Origin: Bacteroidota bacterium
Lineage (GTDB): Bacteria > Bacteroidota > Ignavibacteria > Kapaibacteriales > UBA2268
Length of the DNA: 64,000 nucleotides
Assembly (NCBI GenBank): GCA_021780815.1
Contig: JAJXYC010000018.1
Location: 1 to 64,000 of the forward strand
Reading direction: 5' to 3'
Under the pieces are notes generated by a model. That model ran no database searches, had not been told where the DNA came from, and was given only the letters and a program-made list of their open reading frames with translations. Positions 3,446 through 47,179 of the stretch are shown piece by piece (the stretch's first letter is position 1; the number at the start of each line of letters is the position of its first letter). The position numbers and the translations under genes are program-made.

Positions 3446-4606
3446 ATGGAAAAAAAAGATTATTATGAAGTGCTTGGAGTTTCAAGGAATGCCAGCCTTG
3501 ATGAAATTAAATCAGCATACCGTAAAATGGCAATGAAGCATCATCCTGACAGGAATCCTGATGATAAAGAAGCCGAAGAAATGTTCAAGCAAGCCGCAGA
3601 AGCTTACGAAGTTTTAAGTGATGAAGACAAAAAAGCTCGGTATGATAGATTTGGGTTTGATGGTGTCAAAGGAGCTTATGGGGGACAAGGATTTAATGAT
3701 TTTTCAGATATATTCTCTCACTTCAGCGATATTTTTTCAGGCGGAAGTATTTTTGATGATTTTTTTGGAGGAAGTCGTTCTTCAGGAAGAGGACGTAAAA
3801 GATCTATCGGAGAACAAGGTGCAGATATTAAAATGCGTATGCCTTTAACTTTAGGTGAAATTGCAACAGGTGTAACTAAAAAAGTTAAAGTTAAAGCTTT
3901 TCACGTTTGTGATACTTGCAAAGGAACAGGTTCAAAAGATGGTTCAGGTTATCAAACTTGTCCACATTGCAATGGTGCAGGTGAAATTAGACAAGTTACA
4001 AAAACTTTCCTTGGACAAATCGTTAACGTGACAGTTTGCCCTACTTGCCAAGGTAGTGGACAAATTGTTAAGGAAAAATGCCCTGCTTGCGGTGGTGAAG
4101 GTCGTGTAGAAGGTGAACATACAGTAGATGTTGATATCCCATCTGGTGTTGAGCAAGGACATTACTTGACTATCGAAGGAAAAGGTCATTCCGGAAAACG
4201 TGGTGGTAAACCCGGCAATTTGCATATTATTTTTGAAGAAAAACCGCACCCGTTTTTTAAACGAGTAGGTAATGATATTCATTATAACTTATCTATTCCA
4301 TTAACTCTTGCGACATTAGGTGGTGAAATAGAAATACCAACTATAGATGGAAGCACAAAAATTACTATTGAACAAGGTACTCAACCTAATGAACAATTTG
4401 TTCTGAAAAATTTAGGTATTCCTTATCTTAATCGCAATCAAAAAGGGAACCTTGTTGTTAATATCAATGTTGTTATTCCGAAAAAACTATCTGCTCGTGA
4501 AAAAGAACTTTTGCAAGAACTATCTGAAAGTGAAAATTTTAAATTCATTAAAAATTCAAAAAAGCACAAAGATTTTTTTGAAAAAGTCAAAGATACGTTC
4601 TTTTAA
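3446..4606 (+). CDS. dnaJ: Chaperone protein DnaJ
   Basis: Hsp40 co-chaperone that stimulates DnaK ATPase and delivers substrates. All type I domains are present in 386 aa: J domain (residues 1-70) with HPD in [11 protein letters not shown], a glycine/phenylalanine-rich stretch with repeated FSDIFS and GGS segments (about 75-120), the zinc-binding centre with four CxxCxGxG repeats ([32 protein letters not shown]; about 153-220), and two C-terminal substrate-binding domains. It lies 34 bp after grpE on the same strand, so the two are probably co-transcribed. Confidence 0.97.
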
Positions 4607-4651
4607 TTAAAAAATTTTCGTATTTTAGAGTTTCCCAAAAATATAATTTTT

Positions 4652-5167
4652 ATGGAAAATTTTAAAAATAAGATTAAGACTATTTTTAAGGTAACAAACG
4701 GAGAATTATACGTTTCTGTTTTATTTTTAATAGCACTTGTTATTGGTTCTATTGCAAGCAATTACCAAAATAATTCAACAAAAGATTTAATAATTAATAG
4801 TAGTTTTTTTACATTTCTTGATAGCATAGAATCAAAGCATAGTGTTCAATTAAATGATACTTTACGAGAATTATCCAATAATGAAGTTTCAAATGATGAG
4901 CAAATTAGTAATTTTAATAACAATAATTATTCATCATTTGCAAGTAATTCAAAGAAATTGAAGTCAGGTGAAAATGTATCAATTAACATTAATACTGCTT
5001 CTAAAACGGATTTAATGAGGTTGCCCGGTGTTGGAGATAAAACTGCTGATGCAATAATTGCTTATAGAAATAGCAATAAGTTCAAGAAAATTAATGATAT
5101 TATGAACGTAAAAGGCATAGGACCGGCCAAGTTCTCTAAAATAAAAGATTTTATTAATATAAAATAA
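4652..5167 (+). CDS. ComEA-like helix-hairpin-helix protein, membrane-anchored
   Basis: A 171-aa protein with one N-terminal membrane segment (LYVSVLFLIALVIGSIAS, about 19-36), a polar asparagine/serine-rich linker, and a C-terminal double helix-hairpin-helix domain (about 108-171) with the two hairpins LPGVGDKTAD and VKGIGPAKF. This is the layout of ComEA, which binds incoming DNA in the periplasm during natural transformation. dprA at 30.2-31.3 kb is another competence gene, but comEC and pilus genes are not in the window. It could equally be another HhH DNA-binding protein. It lies 45 bp after dnaJ. Confidence 0.75.
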   Translation: MENFKNKIKTIFKVTNGELYVSVLFLIALVIGSIASNYQNNSTKDLIINSSFFTFLDSIESKHSVQLNDTLRELSNNEVSNDEQISNFNNNNYSSFASNSKKLKSGENVSININTASKTDLMRLPGVGDKTADAIIAYRNSNKFKKINDIMNVKGIGPAKFSKIKDFINIK

Positions 5168-5252
5168 AACAAAATATATTTATAACTATTTATAAATTAA
5201 AATAAATAGAAAAATATAAAGAAAAATGACCATAAAAATAATTTCAAATAAT

Positions 5253-5283
5253 TTTGTTATTTCAAATCTTTTTTATAATTTTG
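5253..5283 (+). promoter_or_regulatory. Candidate Bacteroidota-type promoter upstream of rplU
   Basis: TTTG at 5253-5256 and TAATTTTG at 5276-5283 are separated by 19 bp. They match the -33 TTTG and -7 TAnnTTTG elements known for the primary sigma factor of Bacteroidota. Transcription would start near 5290, about 20 bp before the rplU ATG at 5312. In DNA this AT-rich the match could be chance. Confidence 0.45.
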
Positions 5284-5311
5284 TTTTCTGTAAAAATGTA
5301 AAAGTAAAAAA

Positions 5312-5623
5312 ATGTTAGCTGTAGTAGAAATCGCAGGTGGACAATTTGAAGTTGAAAAGACTAAAAAGTTAAATGTGCCACTATTGAAAGGAAATGAAGG
5401 AGATTTAGTAGAATTTTCAAACATTCTACTTGTCAAAGATGGCGAAACAGTTGAAATTGGTGAACCATATTTGTCAGGCAAGGTAACAGCAAAGATATTA
5501 AATACTTTCAAAGATAAGAAAGTATTAGTATTTCATAAGAAAAGACGTAAAGGGTACCGTAAATTAAACGGTCATCGTGAAGAATATACGAATATTGAAA
5601 TTTTAGATATACAAGTAAATTAA
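5312..5623 (+). CDS. rplU: 50S ribosomal protein bL21
   Basis: 103 aa, the family's usual length, starting [16 protein letters not shown] and carrying the conserved end region [17 protein letters not shown] that contacts 23S rRNA domain I. It is followed after 9 bp by rpmA, the standard L21-L27 pair. A promoter-like pair of boxes lies just upstream, and the pair ends at a strong terminator at 5941. Confidence 0.97.
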
Positions 5624-5632
5624 GAGGGACAA

Positions 5633-5899
5633 ATGGCACATAAAAAAGGTGGCGGTTCATCTAAAAACGGACGTGATTCTAATTCCCAACGTCGTGGTGT
5701 TAAAAAGTTTGGCGGAGAATTTGTCCAATCTGGCAATATAATTGTTCGTCAATTAGGTACACAATTCCATCCAGGTGAAAATGTTGGTCTCGGTAGAGAT
5801 TTTACTATTTTTTCATTGATTGATGGTTATGTTAAGTTTGAATGGAAAGACAAAAAGACTAAAAGAATATCAGTCTATCCTTCAGAAAATGTAAACTAA
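5633..5899 (+). CDS. rpmA: 50S ribosomal protein bL27
   Basis: 88 aa with the canonical N-terminus [16 protein letters not shown], whose tail reaches the peptidyl-transferase centre, and the core [19 protein letters not shown] and [12 protein letters not shown]. There is no N-terminal propeptide of the kind removed by Prp protease in Firmicutes. A possible SD, AGAGGGA, precedes the ATG. Second gene of the rplU-rpmA operon. Confidence 0.97.
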
Positions 5900-5940
5900 C
5901 GGAAAAAATTATTTTTTTCATAAAACCCTCCTATTTTTTT

Positions 5941-5972
5941 CCTCCGCATTGTATAAGTGCGGGGGTTTTTAT
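5941..5972 (+). terminator. Rho-independent terminator of rplU-rpmA
   Basis: CCTCCGCA at 5941-5948 pairs (one G-T) with TGCGGGGG at 5958-5965 around a 9-nt loop and runs into TTTTTATTTTAT. It lies 42 bp after the rpmA stop. Confidence 0.85.
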
Positions 5973-6024
5973 TTTATATGGCTCGCTAATAAAAAGAAAA
6001 CAGTATATAACTTCAATCACCTTG

Positions 6025-6046
6025 AATCATCGATAAATCATCGATA
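6025..6046 (+). repeat. Perfect 11-bp tandem repeat upstream of clpP
   Basis: AATCATCGATA occurs twice head to tail (6025-6035 and 6036-6046), with no gap, in the 242-bp space between rpmA and clpP. Each copy contains the palindrome ATCGAT. The 11-bp period puts both copies on one helix face, so it could be an operator for clpP-clpX; no binding protein can be named. Confidence 0.6.
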
Positions 6047-6141
6047 ACTTATAAAATTCTCTAATTTAACTTCCATAGAAAAAAAATGTAAATTACTTGT
6101 TTTCGTCTAAAAATTATTATTAAATTAAAATTAGAAAAAAA

Positions 6142-6750
6142 ATGAATAATCAATTAATTCCAATAGTAATTGAACAAACAAATCGTGGTGAGCGTTCTTA
6201 TGATATTTATTCAAGATTATTAAAAGAACGTATAATCTTTTTAGGAAGTGCAATTGATGATTATGTAGCAAATTTAATTGTTGCGCAATTATTATTTTTA
6301 GCAAGTGAAGATCCAGATAAAGATATTTCTTTGTATATAAATTCACCAGGCGGTAGCGTATCTGCCGGTCTTGCTATTTACGATACTATGCAATTTATCA
6401 AACCAGATGTAAGCACTATTTGTGTAGGTCTTGCCGCTTCTATGGGACAACTTCTTCTTACTGCCGGTGCTGATGGAAAACGCTATGCTTTACCTAATTC
6501 AAGAATTTTAATGCACCAACCTTCCGGTGGAACACAAGGTCAATCTGTGGATATAGAAATTTATACAAAAGAAATTATTCGAACAAGAGAAACTTTGTAT
6601 GAAATTATCGCAAAACATACCAAAAAGCCTATTGACCAAATTCGCAAAGATGCTGATAGAGATTATTATTTAACTTCACAAGAAGCTATGAATTATGGAA
6701 TTATTGATAATATTTTAACAAGTATTAACGATATTCCAAAAGAAAAATAG
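6142..6750 (+). CDS. clpP: ATP-dependent Clp protease proteolytic subunit
   Basis: Serine peptidase that forms the double-heptamer chamber of ClpXP. 202 aa. The catalytic triad is visible: S100 in GLAASMGQ, H125 in LMHQPSGG and D174 in ADRDYYLT. The oxyanion and handle region [17 protein letters not shown] is intact. It is followed after 23 bp by clpX, the usual operon. A tandem 11-bp repeat lies about 100 bp upstream. Confidence 0.97.
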
Positions 6751-6773
6751 TTATTTGATAAGGAAATTTATTT

Positions 6774-8018
6774 ATGCCAAAATCGACAAAAAATGTGCAG
6801 TGTTCTTTTTGTGGTAGAACTCATAACGAAGTTGAAAGCTTTATAAAAGGAGCCGATGGAGTTTTAATTTGTAATATTTGCATTGAGAACGCCTCAGAAA
6901 TCTTAAAAAAACAAAAACCTATAAAAGAAGAGAAAAAAATAAATAATATAGAATTGCCTAAACCTTCCGAAATTAAGCGAAAATTGGACCAATACGTAAT
7001 TGGACAAGATGAGGCAAAAATTATATTATCAGTTGCAGTATATAACCATTACAAAAGAATTTTGACAAAGAAAAATTTCAATGATGTAGAAATTGAAAAA
7101 AGCAATATTTTGCTTATGGGACCAACAGGAACAGGAAAAACATTGCTCGCAAGGACATTATCTAATATTTTGAAAGTACCTTTTGCAATTGCCGATGCAA
7201 CAACTATTACTGAAGCAGGTTATGTAGGAGATGATGTAGAAACTGTCCTTTTAAATTTAGTCCAAAATGCTGAATATGATATAGAATCCGCAGAAAAAGG
7301 AATAATTTTTATAGATGAGATTGATAAAATTGCAAGGAAAAGCGAATCTACAAGTATTACCCGAGATGTATCCGGTGAAGGGGTGCAACAAGCCCTTTTG
7401 AAAATATTAGAAGGAACTCGTTCAGGAGTTCCTCCAAAAGGCGGCAGAAAACACCCCGAACAAAGCTTGCTTTATGTTAATACAAAAGATATTTTGTTTA
7501 TAGTTGGTGGTGCTTTTGAAGGATTAGAAAAAATTATAGCAAATCGCTTACGCAAATCTGCAATTGGTTTTACTGCTGAACCCGTTCAAAAATTAGATGA
7601 AACTTATTTGCTCTTGAAACAAGCAGAACCAGACGATTTAGTTAAATATGGATTTATCCCTGAAATAGTTGGCAGATTGCCCATAATCACTTCTTTACAC
7701 GACCTTGACGAAAACACTTTAATTAATATTTTACTAACTCCCAAAAACGCTTTAATTAAGCAATATGAAAGATTGTTTGAACTCGATAATGTTAAATTGA
7801 TTGTAAAAGATGATGCACTCAGTGCAATTGCAAAAGAAGCAAAAAAACGCAAAACAGGCGCTCGTGCTTTAAGAAGTATTGTTGAACAATTGTTAATTCC
7901 TATAATGTTCCGAATTCCTGACGAAAAAGATATAAAATCTGTTATAATTACAAAAGAATGCGTTGAAAATCAATCTGAACCAATTTTAGAATCACATACT
8001 AATAAAATTTTAGCATAA
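6774..8018 (+). CDS. clpX: ATP-dependent Clp protease ATP-binding subunit ClpX
   Basis: AAA+ unfoldase that feeds substrates into ClpP. 414 aa. The N-terminal zinc-binding domain has C10, C13, C33 and C36 (CSFCGRT and [10 protein letters not shown]). Walker A is GPTGTGKT at 116-123 and Walker B is [12 protein letters not shown]; the [19 protein letters not shown] segment and the pore motif GYVGDDVE follow the family. AAGGAA lies 10 bp before the ATG. Co-transcribed with clpP. Confidence 0.97.
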
Positions 8019-9453: not shown

Positions 9454-10107
9454 ATGCAAAATTTCATCGATGATTTAAAAAATGTTTATTTAAAAGCTGG
9501 TTACATAAGAATATTTGACCCACATGCTTTGAAAATAGGTATTAGGCAAAATGAAAATATTATACAAATTTCATTATCTGATGTAGCTAAAATTACTGGG
9601 CACATTTGTCCTACAGTTGTTTCTTCATTTTATATCGTTAAAGAAGCCCTTAAATCTTTATACAGCGATGAAATTCCCACCCGTGAAAATTTCTTAGTAG
9701 CAGTTCCTAAATATGATGATGCTGCATTAGTTTTTTCAGTTGTTTTAGATGCTTTCCCTCGTGCCGCTGACGACACTACTGGAACTGGAAAAATGTTCTT
9801 AGACAATAATTTAGGTGTTGATGATTCAAAATTAAAATTTATCTTTAAACGCATTGATACTGGAAAAACAATTTCTGTTACTTGGGATAAAAACATTGCA
9901 ATACCGCCAGAAGTTGCAAGTAAAATGGAAGAATACCAAACAAAAGGAATTAGAGAAAGATATAATTTTGTTGACCACCAAAGATGGAACTCTTTTGTTA
10001 ATGCGCAAGTTGAAAAAATAATATTAACTTTGAATCCAAAGATGTTAACAGTGCAAGATGAACCTGATTACACATTCCCAGGAGAAATGAAATATTCGTT
10101 ACTGTAA
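9454..10107 (+). CDS. FmdE-like domain protein
   Basis: 217 aa. A central motif TGHICPTVVSSFYIVKEAL matches the GHxCPg segment of the FmdE/FwdE family (subunit E of formylmethanofuran dehydrogenase and many stand-alone bacterial relatives that bind a metal). The later TGTGKMF and IFKRIDTGKTISVTW correspond to the family's second conserved block, but the cysteine normally found in that block (TGC) is absent, and no C-terminal zinc ribbon is visible. The reaction is not known. AAAGGA lies 11 bp before the ATG. It stands between rarA and gatB without obvious partners, and a possible terminator follows. Confidence 0.6.
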   Translation: MQNFIDDLKNVYLKAGYIRIFDPHALKIGIRQNENIIQISLSDVAKITGHICPTVVSSFYIVKEALKSLYSDEIPTRENFLVAVPKYDDAALVFSVVLDAFPRAADDTTGTGKMFLDNNLGVDDSKLKFIFKRIDTGKTISVTWDKNIAIPPEVASKMEEYQTKGIRERYNFVDHQRWNSFVNAQVEKIILTLNPKMLTVQDEPDYTFPGEMKYSLL

Positions 10108-14174: not shown

Positions 14175-14909
14175 TTACTTTTTCTTTGCAATAACTAAAA
14201 TTGATAAACCAAAAGGAAAAGGAATATTTGGAATAAAGTATTTTTCCAATTCAAATACCTTTTGAAATATGTAATTTATTGGCTTTGGAAGAATCTCAAC
14301 AGCAAATTCTTGATTTTTAAATGGTTTAATATATTTATCTACCAATCTTTTAAGTAACCCTGGTAAGAACAAAAACGTGTTGAAGTAAGTTGAAAATTGG
14401 ACTTCAAATCCAGCATTCTCAATAATTTTCACAATATCTTTTTTTTTATATCTTCGAAAATGTTTGTGGACTTCGTCGTGAATACTCCAAAGAAATTTAT
14501 AAGCAGGCACTGTTGCGAACAATGTCCCATCTTTGGGTAATACGTTGAAAATATCCTTTACAAAATCATTATCATCTTCAATATGCTCTATAACATCTAG
14601 AACTGTAACAATTCTAATGTTTAATTCATCTTTTGGCAAATCTTTCAGCAAAGATAGATAAAGTTTGTTTAAACCTCTTTTTTTACAGTATTCCAAAGCA
14701 AGTGGCGAAGTATCCAATCCGACAACTGAAAAATATTGAGATAAAGCTTTGGCAAAGCCACAAGTACCACAACCAACATCTAAAATTTGCTCTTGCTCAT
14801 TGATTTTCCCATATTTGCGTATTAAATCTACAATAATTTTGTTTCTTGCTTGAAACCACCAATATGTTTCTTCTAATTTATAATTTGTATGGTAAACTAT
14901 TTCTTTCAT
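14175..14909 (-). CDS. Class I SAM-dependent methyltransferase
   Basis: 244 aa. The SAM-binding motif I is ILDVGCGTCGFAKAL (about 41-55), the acidic loop follows in VVGLDTSPLAL, and motif IV is VLDVIEHIEDDNDF, as in UbiE/Coq5-like Methyltransf_11/23 enzymes. The later VPAYKFLWSIHDEVHKHFRRY block is typical of methyltransferases found beside glycosyltransferases in surface-polymer loci. The substrate cannot be told. It is the first gene of a minus-strand pair with the YfhO-like protein. Confidence 0.85.
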   Translation of the reverse strand: MKEIVYHTNYKLEETYWWFQARNKIIVDLIRKYGKINEQEQILDVGCGTCGFAKALSQYFSVVGLDTSPLALEYCKKRGLNKLYLSLLKDLPKDELNIRIVTVLDVIEHIEDDNDFVKDIFNVLPKDGTLFATVPAYKFLWSIHDEVHKHFRRYKKKDIVKIIENAGFEVQFSTYFNTFLFLPGLLKRLVDKYIKPFKNQEFAVEILPKPINYIFQKVFELEKYFIPNIPFPFGLSILVIAKKK

Positions 14910-15063: not shown

Positions 15064-18000
15064 ATGATTAGTCCAAACGAAGCTTTTGAATATGAATTGT
15101 ATTTTGAATACTTAAAAGATCCTCAAAGTGTTTCTAAAACTTGGAGAGATTACTTCTCACAAAAATATGGTTACAATAATCTTTTAAATCAAGATATAAA
15201 AAAAGGAACTGTGGGAACAGACCAATTTTATCAAGAAACTGCTAAACAACAAGATATAAAGAATAAAGATTTCGCAATAAAATCAGAAATAAATTATAAA
15301 GTTAAAAAATACGAAATTGCTGAACCGCTAACAACAGTTCTTGCACGGGTAGCAGAAAATATGGACGAAAGCGTGTCTGTTCCAACAGCAACTTCATATA
15401 GAACAATTCCTGTTAAAGCACTTGAAGAAAACCGTAGAACAATAAACAACCACCTTGATAGAAATCACAGAAAAAAAGTTTCTTTTACCCATATCATTTC
15501 TTGGGCTATTGTTCGTGCCTTAATTCGTTTCCCAAATATGAACTCTGCTTATGTTGTTATAAATCAAAAGCCACACAGATTAATACGAAAATCTGTTAAT
15601 TATGGTGTTGCTGTTGATATAACCCGCCGTGATGGAACAAGAATTTTACTTGTCCCAAATATAAAAGATGCAGATAAAATTACTTTTGCTCAATTTGTTG
15701 AAGAATACGATATTTTAGTAGAAAAAACAAGGAACAACAAATTAGATGTTGCTGATTTAATGGATACAACCGTTTCCCTCACCAATCCTGGTATGATTGG
15801 AACAACTTATTCAGCACCAAGATTAATGAAAGGACAAGGATTAATTGTAGGTATTGGTGCAATTGAATACCCGCCTGAGCTACAATCACTCAATCCTGCT
15901 GCATTAAGTAATTTAGCAGTATCCAAAGTTGTTACTTTATCAAGTACTTATGACCATAGAATTATTCAAGGAGCGGAATCTGCTGAATTTTTAGCATATT
16001 TACACAAATTAATTACTGGTGGAGATAAATTTTATGAACAAATATTTTACTCAATGGATGTTCCTTATGAGCCTTTCTATTGGTCAATAGACAACTCTAC
16101 ATTTTTCTCAAATAAAGATGACTATCCAGAAAAAACCTCGCATGTAATGCAATTGATTAATGCTTTTAGAGTTCGTGGGCATCTGCTTGCTTCTACTAAC
16201 CCTTTAGGTCGTGCTGTATATTTTTATCCTGAATTAGACCCATCTTATTACGGCTTTACTATTTGGGATTTAGACAGGGTTTTTCACGTCGATGATGTTT
16301 GGGAAAAGAACGAGATGAAACTTCGTGATATTCTTGAATTACTTAAAGATTCCTATTGTAATCAAAGCAGTATCGAGTTTATGCATATCCAAGATTTTGA
16401 ACGGAAAGAATGGATAAAGAAATATTTCGAAAACACTCGTAGTAATTACAATATCCCAAAAGATGAGCAAATTGAACTTTTTAAGAAAATAGCAAAATCC
16501 GAAATATTTGAAAATTTCTTACACACTAAATTTATTGGAACAAAGCGATTTTCATTAGAAGGAGGTGAAACACTTGTTACATTAATAGATAAATTGTTAA
16601 ATAATTCTACCGAAAATGATATTTCGCAAGTTGTATTGGGAATGGCACATCGGGGACGATTAAATGTTGTAGCAAATAATTTAGGAAAAGGATTAATCAA
16701 AATATTTAAAGAATTTGAAGGCGATTTAGAACATGATGCCTATGTTGGGTCAGGTGATGTGAAGTATCATCTTGGTTATTCTGGTAAATTTCAATCTAAA
16801 TCAAATAAAGAACTTGATGTTTTGCTTGCCGCTAATCCAAGTCATTTGGAAATTGTTAATCCTGTTGTTGAAGGAATGGCAAAAGCATTCATAGATAAAT
16901 TTTATAATGGTGATCTCAATAAAGTATTACCAATACTTATCCACGGTGATTCCTCATTTTCAGGGCAAGGTATCGTGATGGAAACCTTGAACTTATCTGA
17001 ATTAGAAGGTTATAGAACTGGTGGAACCATTCATATTGTTGTGAATAATCAAATTGGTTTTACAACCACTTCCGAAGAATCCCGCTCAACATATTATTCA
17101 ACAGATATTGCAAAGATGGTACAAGCACCTATTTTGCATGTCAATGGCAACAACCCCGAAGCTGTTGTTTGGGTGGCTGATTTTGCTTTTAAATATAGAC
17201 AAACTTTCCATAGCGATATTGTTATTGATTTGCTATGTTATAGGAAGTATGGGCATAATGAATCTGATGAACCTACTTACACACAACCTCTTTTATATAA
17301 AAAAATCCGTGCAATGCAACCCATTAGCAGAGTTTATGCTCAACAATTATTGCAAGCAAAAGTTATTACTAATAATGAAATTGAAAATACTTATTCTTCT
17401 ATTTTAAAAGAGATTGAAGATACTTTTGATAATTATAAATCAAATAAACAAGAATCAAACATTCAAATTTTCCCTGTAAAAAAAGAAGTCCTTTTGTCAG
17501 GCAATATTATTTCTTCATCTAACAAAGAGATATTACAAGAAATAACAGATAAAATAACCAAATATCCAAATAGATTTAATATAAATCCAAAGATAAAAAC
17601 TTTATTAGAAAAGCGTAGGCAAATGGTTTTCAACGATAGAACTGCAATAGATTGGTCAATGGCCGAAGCATTAGCTTTCGGAGCAATATTATTAGAAAAT
17701 AAAGATGTGCGATTATCTGGGCAAGATTCCCGACGTGGCACTTTCAGCCAAAGACATTCAGTTCTCATTGATTCCACTAATGAAGATATTTTTATACCTT
17801 TAAATCATATTCGTGAAAATCAAGGGAAATTCAAAGTATTTGATAGTCCTTTATCCGAATATTCTGTATTAGGATTTGAATATGGATACAGTGTAATAGC
17901 GACAAATGGACTAACATTGTGGGAAGCACAATTTGGCGATTTTGCAAATAATGCTGTCCCTATTGTTGACCAATATTTATCTTGTGGCGAATCTAAATGG

Positions 18001-18672
18001 GGACAATTTTCCAATTTAGTTCTGTTGCTTCCTCATAGCTATGATGGACAAGGTCCAGAGCATTCAAGCGCAAGACCTGAAAGGTATTTGCAACTTTGTT
18101 CTGAAGAAAATATGCTCGTCGCAAATCTTTCAACTCCTGCAAATTATTTCCATGCCTTACGCAGACAATTATATTTAAAGAAACAAACCCCTTTAATTAT
18201 TATCACTCCGAAAGGTTTGTTAAGACACCCACTGGCTATATCTAAATTGGAAGATTTTACTGATGAACAATTTAAGCCAATTATCGATGATTTGACTATT
18301 AATGAACCTAATAATATCAAAAAAATCATCTTCCATACAGGCAAAATATATTATGAATTATTAACAGAACGAAATAAAAAGCAAATTATCGACACTGCTT
18401 TAATACGAATTGAGCAACTTTATCCATTAGATAAAGAAGCAATCAGTAAAATTTTAAAGAAATATAGCAATGCTATTGAATTGGTTTGGTTCCAAGAAGA
18501 ACCTAAAAATCAAGGTTATTGGAATTATATTGTACAAGAATTTATTGAAATAACAGGAATAAATAAACAAATTAAGTATTTCGGAAGACCTGCAAGTCCT
18601 GCGACTGCAACTGGTTCTTCAAAAATTCATATAGCAGAACAATCATTTATTTTAGAAAATGTATTTAAATAA
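15064..18672 (+). CDS. kgd: Multifunctional 2-oxoglutarate dehydrogenase/decarboxylase with fused E2-like domain
   Basis: 1202 aa with the order of mycobacterial Kgd/corynebacterial OdhA. A short E1 N-terminal helix (residues 1-40) is followed by an acyltransferase (E2o) catalytic domain at about 80-325, with the active-site histidine in TYDHRIIQGAESAEF near 297 and no lipoyl domain, then a full thiamine-diphosphate E1o (about 355-1200). E1 motifs include MAHRGRLNVVANNLGK, GSGDVKYHLG, HGDSSFSGQG with NNQIGFTT, and GQDSRRGTFSQRH. It would feed 2-oxoglutarate to succinyl-CoA in the TCA cycle, borrowing the lipoyl arm of another E2, or make succinic semialdehyde. No sucB or lpd is adjacent. It starts divergently from the methyltransferase and is followed by ferritin. 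Confidence 0.92.
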   Translation: MISPNEAFEYELYFEYLKDPQSVSKTWRDYFSQKYGYNNLLNQDIKKGTVGTDQFYQETAKQQDIKNKDFAIKSEINYKVKKYEIAEPLTTVLARVAENMDESVSVPTATSYRTIPVKALEENRRTINNHLDRNHRKKVSFTHIISWAIVRALIRFPNMNSAYVVINQKPHRLIRKSVNYGVAVDITRRDGTRILLVPNIKDADKITFAQFVEEYDILVEKTRNNKLDVADLMDTTVSLTNPGMIGTTYSAPRLMKGQGLIVGIGAIEYPPELQSLNPAALSNLAVSKVVTLSSTYDHRIIQGAESAEFLAYLHKLITGGDKFYEQIFYSMDVPYEPFYWSIDNSTFFSNKDDYPEKTSHVMQLINAFRVRGHLLASTNPLGRAVYFYPELDPSYYGFTIWDLDRVFHVDDVWEKNEMKLRDILELLKDSYCNQSSIEFMHIQDFERKEWIKKYFENTRSNYNIPKDEQIELFKKIAKSEIFENFLHTKFIGTKRFSLEGGETLVTLIDKLLNNSTENDISQVVLGMAHRGRLNVVANNLGKGLIKIFKEFEGDLEHDAYVGSGDVKYHLGYSGKFQSKSNKELDVLLAANPSHLEIVNPVVEGMAKAFIDKFYNGDLNKVLPILIHGDSSFSGQGIVMETLNLSELEGYRTGGTIHIVVNNQIGFTTTSEESRSTYYSTDIAKMVQAPILHVNGNNPEAVVWVADFAFKYRQTFHSDIVIDLLCYRKYGHNESDEPTYTQPLLYKKIRAMQPISRVYAQQLLQAKVITNNEIENTYSSILKEIEDTFDNYKSNKQESNIQIFPVKKEVLLSGNIISSSNKEILQEITDKITKYPNRFNINPKIKTLLEKRRQMVFNDRTAIDWSMAEALAFGAILLENKDVRLSGQDSRRGTFSQRHSVLIDSTNEDIFIPLNHIRENQGKFKVFDSPLSEYSVLGFEYGYSVIATNGLTLWEAQFGDFANNAVPIVDQYLSCGESKWGQFSNLVLLLPHSYDGQGPEHSSARPERYLQLCSEENMLVANLSTPANYFHALRRQLYLKKQTPLIIITPKGLLRHPLAISKLEDFTDEQFKPIIDDLTINEPNNIKKIIFHTGKIYYELLTERNKKQIIDTALIRIEQLYPLDKEAISKILKKYSNAIELVWFQEEPKNQGYWNYIVQEFIEITGINKQIKYFGRPASPATATGSSKIHIAEQSFILENVFK

Positions 18673-18741: not shown

Positions 18742-19266
18742 ATGATAAAGGAAAGTTTGCAAAAAGCCATTAATGAACAAATCGTTCGTGAAATGTATTC
18801 TTCCAATTTATATTTATCTATGGCTGCATATTATGCCGCTACTAACTTAAACGGATTTTCTAATTGGATGAGAGTGCAAGCAGAAGAAGAACTTACTCAC
18901 GCTCTTAAATTCTTTGATTACGTTATTGACCGTGGCGGAAAAGTTGAATTAGGAGCAATTCCAGCTCCCGAAATAAAATGGAATAATTCTATTAAGCCTT
19001 TTGAAGATGCTTATGAACATGAACAAAAAGTAACAGGTTGGATTAACGGGTTACTTGACCTTGCTTATCAAGAAAAAGATTATGCTACAATTAGCTTTTT
19101 AAACTGGTTCATTGATGAACAAGTTGAAGAAGAAAAAAATACAAGTGAAATATTGGATAAATTGCATTTAGCTGGGGAATCAAAAGCGAGCTTGTTTTTA
19201 CTCGACAATGAATTAAAAACCAGGACAGTTTCTCCTGCGGCAACTTCATCTGCCGCTGCTAACTAA
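18742..19266 (+). CDS. ftnA: Non-haem ferritin
   Basis: 174 aa, a four-helix iron-storage protein that oxidises Fe(II) at a di-iron centre. Ligands are visible in NEQIVREMYSSNLYLSMA (helix A glutamate), QAEEELTHALKFFDYV (EExxH), and FIDEQVEEEKN (helix D). GAGG precedes the ATG. The C-terminus has a short alanine/serine tail. It ends at a clear terminator. Confidence 0.95.
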   Translation: MIKESLQKAINEQIVREMYSSNLYLSMAAYYAATNLNGFSNWMRVQAEEELTHALKFFDYVIDRGGKVELGAIPAPEIKWNNSIKPFEDAYEHEQKVTGWINGLLDLAYQEKDYATISFLNWFIDEQVEEEKNTSEILDKLHLAGESKASLFLLDNELKTRTVSPAATSSAAAN

Positions 19267-44263: not shown

Positions 44264-47179
44264 ATGAAAATTAGAACAAAACTAATTATCTTTGGGATAA
44301 TAATGGTAGCCATTGTGGCTTTCTTTACCTACCAAATGAATACCTTGCTTTCCAATGCTAACCAAAATATGAAAGATTTGGTTACCGAAAGATTAGTAAA
44401 AATTGAAAATTTTAATGCTACCGCTACTTTTAAAAGCCAAAATGCAATTGATATGCTTTTTGCAATTACGGAAAAAAATCCGGTTTCTACTAAAGAGCAT
44501 TTAAAGATTATTAATTTACGTAGAGATAGCACTAAAAAAGCAATTGATAAATTAAAAGGTGTAAAATGGAATGCAGAAGGACAAAAAAAATTAGAACAAT
44601 TGCTTGCAATTGATGAAAAATGGGCACCTATTTTTAATACTGTTCTGTATTATTTAGAAAATAATAGCTATGACGATGCTTACGAAACTGTTGAAAATGA
44701 TTTAAAGCCAATTTTGAAAGAATACACTGAATTTATGAATAGTGAAATTAAAAGACAAATTAAAAGAACCCAAGACGATTACGCCCAAAGCGAGGCGGAT
44801 TTCCATTCAGCAGTTACTTTATCATTTGTTCTTGCGGGAGGTGCTTTATTAATCGTACTCTTCTTTACTTTCTATATTACTATTTCCATTGGCAAATCTA
44901 TTAACGAAGCGGCAAAACAAAGCAATGATATGGCTAATGGTAATTTAAACATTCAATCCAATACTAAAATTAAAGATGAAACAAAACAAATTCTTGATGC
45001 AAGCGAAACTCTTACAAAAACTTTGAAAGAAATCACTGGGGAAATCGGTGTACTCACAAACAATATGCTTGATGGCAAACTTGACTATCGTGCTAATGCC
45101 CAAAAATTCAAAGGTGAATATAAAAATTTGGTTGAAGGGTTAAACTCTATTGTAGATGCTTTAATCAAACCAATGAATATGACGGCAGAATATGTAGATA
45201 GGATAAGCAAAGGCGATATTCCTCCAAAAATAACAGATAAATACAATGGTGATTTCAATGAAATCAAGAATAATATCAATTTATTAATTGAATCTACTGA
45301 AAAAATTGCGAATGATATTCTTTCTCTTTCAAAAGGTGATTTAAATGTATCATTAACTGTACGTTCTGAAAATGATGTATTAATTAAATCAGTTAAAATT
45401 ATTGTTGAAAGCTTATCTGCATTAGTTCAAGATGCCACGATGTTGGCTAATGCCGCAAAAGAAGGCAAATTAGATGTGCGGGCAGATGCAAGCAAACATC
45501 AAGGCGATTTCCGTGCTATTGTCCAAGGTGTGAATAGCACATTAGACAATGTAATAGGACCATTAAATGTGGCAGCAGAGTATGTAGATAGAATAAGCAA
45601 AGGTGATATTCCTCCAATCATCACAGAAGAGTATAAAGGCGATTTCAACGAAATAAAAAACAACTTGAATGGTTGTATAAATGTAATGAACGGATTATTA
45701 GTAGAAACAGATGGACTAATAAAAGCAACAAAAGAAGGTAGATTAGATACACGAGGTAATGCCAGCGCTTTTGTCGGTGGTTGGGGTACACTTGTAAGTG
45801 GAGTAAATGATCTGATAGACGCTTTTGTTGGACCAATTAATGTTACTGCAGAATATGTAGATAGAATAAGCAAAGGTGATATTCCTCCAATCATCACAGA
45901 TACGTACTATGGCGATTTCAATGAAATAAAAAACAACTTGAATGGTTGTATAACAGCAGTAAATCTTTTAGTAAAAGATGCAGCAATGTTAGCAGAAGCA
46001 GCCCGAGAAGGCCGATTAGATACAAGAGCAGATGCAAGCAAACATCAAGGCGATTTCCGAGCAATAGTACAAGGAGTAAATGATACATTAGATAATGTAA
46101 TAAGACCAATAACTAAAGAAATAGAAGTAATGCAAAAATTGGCAGGTGGAGATTTAACTGAACAAATGGATGGTGATTTCAAAGGTGAATTAAAAAAATT
46201 GCAAGAAGCAACAAACAATTCATTAACAAGTTTGAACGATTTAATTAGCGAAGTTAAGCGGACCGTTGATGAGGTATCCCGAGGCGCAATGCAAGTAAGC
46301 GATGCATCCTCTGCACTTTCACAAGGTGCAACCGAACAAGCGGCATCACTTGAAGAAATAACATCATCAATGGGGGAAATTGCATCACAAGTAAACACAA
46401 ATGCAGACAATGCCCATCAAGCAAGTTTGCTAACAAACGAAGCAAAAGAATATTCCGAACGAGGTAATCGCCAAATGGAACATCTTGTAAAAGCAATGAA
46501 TGATATAAGTTCAGCAAGTGAAAATATTTCAAAAATTATTAGAGTAATAGATGAAATAGCCTTCCAAACCAACTTACTTGCCCTTAATGCGGCAGTAGAA
46601 GCAGCACGTGCTGGGCGGCATGGCAAAGGATTTGCTGTTGTTGCGGAAGAAGTCCGGAATCTTGCGGCAAGAAGCGCAACAGCGGCAAAAGAGACTGCTG
46701 AATTAATTGACAATACCAGAAAAGCAGTTGATAATGGTATATTAATTGTAAATCGTACAAGCGAAGCATTAGAAGAAATTCGCAATGGTGCTATTAAATC
46801 TGCTGATATTGTTTCCGAAATTGCAACTTCATCGAATGAGCAAGCCCAGGCAATTGCTCAAATTAATGAAGGATTATCTCAAATTGATAAAGTTACTCAA
46901 ACTAATACCGCAAGCGCAGAAGAAAGTGCTTCCGCAAGCGAAGAGCTTTCCGGTCAAGCTGGTTTACTTAAAGAAATCGTCCAAAGATTCAAAACAAAAG
47001 ATACAAAACTGGCTGATGACGAAGATTTTATTCCAAAACATAAAACTTTTGCTCATAAACCAAATAAAGGTTTGCCAGAACATAAATTAACAAATGTAAA
47101 TCCCGAAGATGATTATGATTTCAACATAAAACCAACTGATGTAATTAAACTTGATGAAGATGATTTCGGCAAATTCTAA
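44264..47179 (+). CDS. Methyl-accepting chemotaxis protein with tandem HAMP-like modules
   Basis: 971 aa, much longer than common MCPs. TM1 (about 7-24), a periplasmic four-helix-bundle-like sensor (25-185), TM2 (about 186-206), HAMP, then alternating modules: type B (EGRLDTRADASKHQGDF pattern) near 265, 397, 490 and 572, and type A (AEYVDRISKGDIPP) near 305, 439 and 529. The signalling domain has the hairpin tip EIAFQTNLLALNAAVEAARA. There is no CheR/CheB pentapeptide at the end. AAGGAG precedes the ATG. No che genes lie in the window. A terminator follows. Confidence 0.93.
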   Translation: MKIRTKLIIFGIIMVAIVAFFTYQMNTLLSNANQNMKDLVTERLVKIENFNATATFKSQNAIDMLFAITEKNPVSTKEHLKIINLRRDSTKKAIDKLKGVKWNAEGQKKLEQLLAIDEKWAPIFNTVLYYLENNSYDDAYETVENDLKPILKEYTEFMNSEIKRQIKRTQDDYAQSEADFHSAVTLSFVLAGGALLIVLFFTFYITISIGKSINEAAKQSNDMANGNLNIQSNTKIKDETKQILDASETLTKTLKEITGEIGVLTNNMLDGKLDYRANAQKFKGEYKNLVEGLNSIVDALIKPMNMTAEYVDRISKGDIPPKITDKYNGDFNEIKNNINLLIESTEKIANDILSLSKGDLNVSLTVRSENDVLIKSVKIIVESLSALVQDATMLANAAKEGKLDVRADASKHQGDFRAIVQGVNSTLDNVIGPLNVAAEYVDRISKGDIPPIITEEYKGDFNEIKNNLNGCINVMNGLLVETDGLIKATKEGRLDTRGNASAFVGGWGTLVSGVNDLIDAFVGPINVTAEYVDRISKGDIPPIITDTYYGDFNEIKNNLNGCITAVNLLVKDAAMLAEAAREGRLDTRADASKHQGDFRAIVQGVNDTLDNVIRPITKEIEVMQKLAGGDLTEQMDGDFKGELKKLQEATNNSLTSLNDLISEVKRTVDEVSRGAMQVSDASSALSQGATEQAASLEEITSSMGEIASQVNTNADNAHQASLLTNEAKEYSERGNRQMEHLVKAMNDISSASENISKIIRVIDEIAFQTNLLALNAAVEAARAGRHGKGFAVVAEEVRNLAARSATAAKETAELIDNTRKAVDNGILIVNRTSEALEEIRNGAIKSADIVSEIATSSNEQAQAIAQINEGLSQIDKVTQTNTASAEESASASEELSGQAGLLKEIVQRFKTKDTKLADDEDFIPKHKTFAHKPNKGLPEHKLTNVNPEDDYDFNIKPTDVIKLDEDDFGKF
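45482..46059 (+). repeat. Near-identical internal repeats in the chemoreceptor gene
   Basis: 47 bp at 45581-45627 are identical to 45854-45900 (273 bp apart), followed in both by a second 40-bp block (45641-45680 and 45914-45953) differing by one base. A 32-bp block at 45482-45513 recurs at 46028-46059. Identity extends to third codon positions, which points to recent duplication or conversion of the module. Confidence 0.85.

Follow-up and report, generated by a model that had tools for sequence, protein, structure and literature searches.

Where does a 2-oxoglutarate dehydrogenase obtain its lipoyl arm when its E1o and E2o parts are joined in one chain and that chain holds no lipoyl domain? 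This question is raised by an open reading frame at positions 15064-18672 on the forward strand of the window, as we call the whole 64,000-nucleotide stretch of Bacteroidota DNA analysed here. The frame begins with ATG, runs through 1202 codons with no internal stops, and encodes a 2-oxoglutarate dehydrogenase E2o-E1o fusion of the OdhA/Kgd type, 1202 amino acids in length.

Domain organization of the fusion

In the Pfam scan of the protein, the N-terminal E1o helix motif (2-oxogl_dehyd_N, PF16078; 28.7 bits, cut-off 27) occupies residues 5-33, encoded at 15076-15162; like all other parts of the fusion, it lies on the forward strand. To judge from the literature, this motif is likely the segment that docks the partner (PMC10415282). 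The E2o succinyltransferase catalytic domain (2-oxoacid_dh, PF00198; 167.7 bits, E=3.6e-49) spans residues 85-318 (15316-16017). The thiamine-diphosphate 2-oxoglutarate decarboxylase/dehydrogenase part, i.e., E1o, takes up residues 351-1201 (16114-18666), with matches to E1_dh (523-797), Transket_pyr (861-1054) and OxoGdeHyase_C (1060-1201). It scores 1150.9 bits against NF006914 (cut-off 764) and 1024.6 against TIGR00239 (cut-off 770), and the fusion as a whole passes the NCBIfam equivalog NF008907 with 1592.7 bits, relative to a cut-off of 878, in an alignment that covers residues 60-1201.

An earlier note on this DNA had described a complete E1o preceded by an E2o domain with its DHR active site, and had seen no lipoyl domain. 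The NF008907 score and the motif STYDHRIIQG bear out the former, and neither the Pfam scan of the reading frame nor a whole-genome search with PF00364 places a biotin/lipoyl domain in the fusion. Because NF008907, a public annotation model, already recognises such proteins, the protein itself is not new; what is new to us is the wider pairing of OdhA with E2. We considered an assembly artefact as the origin of the fusion and rejected it, given that most relatives carry the same two halves in an open frame of similar length, about 1200 codons.

Catalytic, structural and regulatory residues

The nearest solved structures are those of KGD from Mycobacterium smegmatis (8P5R) and OdhA from Corynebacterium glutamicum (PDB 8P5T-8P5X), which likewise combine E2o and E1o in one chain without a lipoyl domain. 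Published OdhA residues (PMC10415282) were mapped onto the window's protein by alignment. The active-site motif STYDHRIIQG provides H298, equivalent to OdhA His316 and encoded by the codon at 15955-15957 within the DHR motif, and Q302, equivalent to Gln320; OdhA Ser129, Thr258, Ser268 and Tyr314 correspond to S111, T240, S250 and Y296. The window's protein thereby retains every catalytic and succinyl-binding residue of E2o. The catalytic residues His316, Gln320 and Tyr314 (OdhA numbering) are kept in all 40 aligned fusions. A short helix that sets OdhA-type E2o domains apart, residues 296-302 in OdhA, has the same length in the window's protein, where the ungapped alignment to 8p5t places it at residues 278-284 (15895-15915); the AlphaFold model has a matching helix at model positions 194-199, that is, residues 278-283. 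Phe340, which in OdhA fills the trimer-trimer socket (PMC10415282), is matched by F323 in the E2o C-terminal helix (16021-16053, from the alignment and the modelled helix), and this residue is phenylalanine in 40/40 aligned fusions. The Arg298-Glu301 salt bridge is absent from the window's protein, as it is from the sampled Actinobacteria (Arg298 in 0/10).

The AlphaFold model of residues 85-1202, a single chain computed from an alignment that held actinobacterial rows, has a mean pLDDT of 81 and superimposes on full-length OdhA (8P5V) with a TM-score of 0.92. The window's protein thus resembles C. glutamicum OdhA in its catalytic residues, short helix, Phe340 equivalent and full-length fold, but it is only about 43% identical to it, and it lacks Arg781 and Asp795. 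Arg781 is present in 10/10 Actinobacteria, as against 0/14 members of the window's order, and is replaced by A765 here; Asp795, which contacts OdhI/FHA, is found in 9/10 Actinobacteria, as against one of the 14 order members, with S779 at this position in the window. Because these two residues are not conserved in the order, the actinobacterial regulation by OdhI/GarA is probably not shared, whereas the catalytic machinery is common to the window's protein and actinobacterial OdhA. Regulation aside, the fusion reads as a member of the OdhA family on every feature that could be assessed.

Distribution and descent of the fusion

The fusion occurs in 52 of 60 sampled relatives, the window's genome included, although contig breaks split it in some. 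Among 248 genomes of the phylum, full-length fusions are found in the window's order, in part of the class and in several other families; other families carry a plain SucA of 910-1000 residues, so that the phylum-wide pattern is patchy. Fusion carriers with names include Kapaibacterium, Balneola, Chloroherpetonaceae, Ignavibacteriota, KSB1, Acidobacteria, Planctomycetota and many Actinobacteria. The earlier note had suspected relatives in other FCB genomes, and these indeed turn up in Balneolota, Ignavibacteria and Chlorobiota. The fusions of Kapaibacterium, Balneola, Ignavibacteriota, Chloroherpetonaceae, Acidobacteria and Planctomycetota have the same architecture as that in the window, with 43-54% identity over the E2o-E1o junction. 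Canonical SucA and SucB, as in Escherichia coli and Bacteroidia, perform the same chemistry with a homologous E1o, but as separate proteins.

To place the fusion among its homologs, we compared the E1o parts of 56 proteins in a rapidly built tree that has no bootstrap values and leaves several deep branches open. A branch with support 99 parts all fusions from SucA. The window's protein lies inside the clade of its own order (support 100), as does that of Kapaibacterium, which makes the organism most likely a Bacteroidota member akin to Kapaibacteria. The Actinobacteria form one nested clade (support 99). A single clade of FCB fusions is rejected by the AU test (p 0.001). Recent transfer from Actinobacteria was likewise rejected as the simplest reading, with the order's own clade lying outside the actinobacterial one. 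On its position in the tree and its spread, then, the OdhA/Kgd fusion is native to the window's order. The earlier note had seen an actinobacterial-type gene out of place, a view that does not survive its presence throughout the order in a lineage not nested in Actinobacteria. Vertical descent, which the note had named as the pattern that would speak against it, is what we find at the level of the order, albeit not evenly across the phylum. In one genome of the same family (L009, G005:C317), the OdhA match contains a single in-frame TGA, probably from faulty sequencing or because the gene has become a pseudogene.

As for the neighborhood, a methyltransferase gene at 14175-14909 on the reverse strand adjoins odhA and is kept there in 4 sampled congeners (52-63% identity); it was not seen at this place elsewhere among the order's sampled loci. 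The ferritin gene on the other flank (18742-19266) is not kept in the sampled relatives.

Partner enzymes in the genome

The window's genome (2.63 Mb, 99.05% complete) was examined as a whole, as the earlier note had proposed for lpd and E2, and yielded one of each besides the fusion. Two E2 catalytic domains are encoded: that of the fusion and that of a lone E2 on contig C9, a protein of 612 residues that combines a pair of lipoyl domains with a subunit-binding domain (PSBD) and an acyltransferase domain. Further PF00364 matches above the cut-off fall in short frames, 116-194 codons in length; a frame on C1, the only one to be classified, is BCCP. A single lipoamide dehydrogenase, Lpd, is found on contig C8 (TIGR01350, 576 over 409). 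The genes for OdhA and the lone E2 lie on separate contigs and form no operon. AceE was not found in the genome (best TIGR00759 score 31 bits, cut-off 859.9). A pyruvate:ferredoxin oxidoreductase (PFOR) is present (1840 over 911), as is SucD. A second E1, an alpha-beta fusion of 727 residues, is encoded on C2; it matches PDH and BCKDH E1 and passes no PDH cut-off.

Because the fusion has no lipoyl domain, and the 99%-complete genome offers one other E2 and one E3, the arm would have to be supplied in trans. We consider it probable that the organism's 2-oxoglutarate dehydrogenase is of this OdhA/Kgd type, with the lipoyl arm provided by the lone E2 in a shared complex. The E1o half of OdhA would decarboxylate 2-oxoglutarate and charge one of the C9 E2's lipoyl domains with the succinyl group; this domain would then swing to the E2o half of OdhA, where the succinyl group would be moved to CoA, and the C8 lipoamide dehydrogenase would reoxidise the arm. 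OdhA would belong to a shared oxoacid dehydrogenase complex or at least contact it, and the second E1 of this complex would be the C2 protein. We infer that the arm is used in trans, that the hexamer and the physical complex exist, and that the C2 E1 pairs with the lone E2.

The hybrid PDH-ODH complex of C. glutamicum (AceE, AceF, Lpd and OdhA) similarly comprises OdhA, a single lipoyl E2 belonging to the same clade, and one Lpd, and the window's OdhA may work like it. Unlike that system, the window's genome has no AceE, a PFOR for pyruvate, and an alpha-beta fused E1. Because this other E1 is of the alpha-beta PDH/BCKDH type, the implied complex is better described as a hybrid oxoacid dehydrogenase than as clearly PDH/ODH. 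Of the mixed PDH/ODH complex proposed in the earlier note, the arm in trans therefore stands, with one other E2 and one E3 at hand, but the PDH identity does not, with AceE missing, PFOR present and the E1 below every PDH cut-off.

Co-occurrence with OdhA, and the C-terminus of the lone E2

Among the 60 relatives, a separate E2 is found in 50 of the 52 genomes with OdhA, as against 2 of the 8 without it (Fisher p 1.5e-5, not corrected for kinship). The exceptions are G048 and G057, where OdhA occurs without a separate E2. The G048 assembly, with 20 contigs and a completeness rating of 100%, has OdhA at 3608-7180 on the reverse strand of locus L270 (G048:C7:28000-38000); here OdhA may serve as a decarboxylase only, or else an E2 was lost to a gap in the assembly.

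To compare the partners, we examined how 111 E2 proteins end at the C-terminus. A knob of proline plus hydrophobic residues closes most chains of canonical E2p, SucB and actinobacterial BCKDH E2, and a simple pattern detects it in 43/47 E2s outside the clade that contains AceF. This clade of 64, with support 99, unites AceF of Actinobacteria with the lone E2 of the order and another group of FCB proteins, and the knob is missing from it: 2/64 match a loose pattern, and neither has a real knob. Because the AU test does not reject a single clade of all actinobacterial E2s (p 0.24), the grouping of AceF with the FCB proteins rests on that one branch support and falls short of proof. The lone E2 lacks the canonical cube-forming knob, LExP..LLL. 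The order's lone E2s end in LExMNExTxxL or nearly so, without the AceF phenylalanine; that of the window's genome ends in LEAMNENTLQI, and actinobacterial AceF in LEEGAFEADLGL. Unlike C. glutamicum AceF, the window genome's E2 does not have the phenylalanine-containing insertion, and this three-residue insertion (PCI motif) was not found in any of the order's E2s.

An AceF-clade E2 was identified in 55 of the 58 OdhA genomes whose E2s were read. No E2 of this clade was found in the OdhA genomes G298 (Kribbella), G315 (Acidobacteria) and G319 (Planctomycetota). Balneola-like genomes, unlike the window's, have a canonical E2p in addition to the AceF-clade E2. Because Bacteroidia without OdhA also carry an AceF-clade E2, this E2 is not specific to OdhA.

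Recent structural studies (PMC10415282, PMC10581250) present the combination of OdhA and an E2p that bears the three-residue insertion as an actinobacterial signature. The genomes analysed here contradict this claim: in several other phyla the fusion is the norm, accompanied by no such insertion but usually by an E2 of the same clade. In a literature search that missed most subscription journals, we found no earlier reports of OdhA outside Actinobacteria. It is conceivable, at something short of an even chance, that the OdhA partnership is an old system of many phyla, in which a fused E1o-E2o works with an E2 lineage devoid of the cube-forming knob; that the AceF phenylalanine insertion is a local feature; and that the order's hybrid complex is built around a PDH/BCKDH-type E1 rather than AceE. 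Whether OdhA needs a non-cubic E2 was left open by the published work (PMC10415282, PMC10581250), and independent lineages are now on hand in which to ask this.

Alternative functions

The lone E2 might instead be a true E2o (SucB) that transfers succinyl on its own arm, leaving the E2o half of the fusion a mainly structural role. It passes the sucB model TIGR01347 (403 over 379) and also TIGR02927, SucB_Actino (464 over 423; the Balneola E2 scores 530), and a tyrosine precedes its DHR motif, as in E2o. However, actinobacterial AceF, an E2p, passes the sucB model too (447), and the match is therefore no proof of succinyl specificity. The E2o catalytic residues kept in 40/40 fusions would moreover be needless in a purely structural domain, and we regard this explanation as unlikely.

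In mycobacterial Kgd, the E1o half is able to release succinic semialdehyde. Such release, generally known from related enzymes, would allow a non-oxidative decarboxylase whose product is turned into succinate, the alternative branch of the TCA cycle raised by the earlier note, and G048, with OdhA and no other E2, would suit it. Against this, none of the three aldehyde dehydrogenases in the genome passes the succinate-semialdehyde dehydrogenase cut-offs (TIGR01780, PRK11241), while the E2o site is intact and both Lpd and SucD are encoded, so that we hold the semialdehyde branch to be highly improbable. Rather unlikely, in our judgment, is a minor or condition-limited OdhA, acting solely under aerobic conditions or on another oxoacid while a KorAB-type 2-oxoacid:ferredoxin oxidoreductase oxidises 2-oxoglutarate. 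This would fit the KorA-type match (TIGR03710, 634 over 483) with its adjacent beta subunit, from C18:157249-157878 onward (L140:6473-9366), and the PFOR; on the other side stand the retention of OdhA in 52/60 relatives and E1o equivalog scores for 2-oxoglutarate. The KorAB-type pair and OdhA may provide two routes from 2-oxoglutarate. Against the supply of the lipoyl arm in trans by the lone E2, which we prefer, stand the location of the two genes on separate contigs, a KorAB-type enzyme that could take the 2-oxoglutarate flux, the lack of a separate E2 in G048 and G057, and the occurrence of the E2 clade in Bacteroidia without OdhA.

Other features of the window

ARAGORN found no tRNA genes in the window (1-64000). 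An FmdE-domain protein, of a family named after the formylmethanofuran dehydrogenase operon, is encoded at 9454-10107 (+), and a methyl-accepting chemotaxis protein of 971 residues with four HAMP_2 stretches at 44264-47179 (+).
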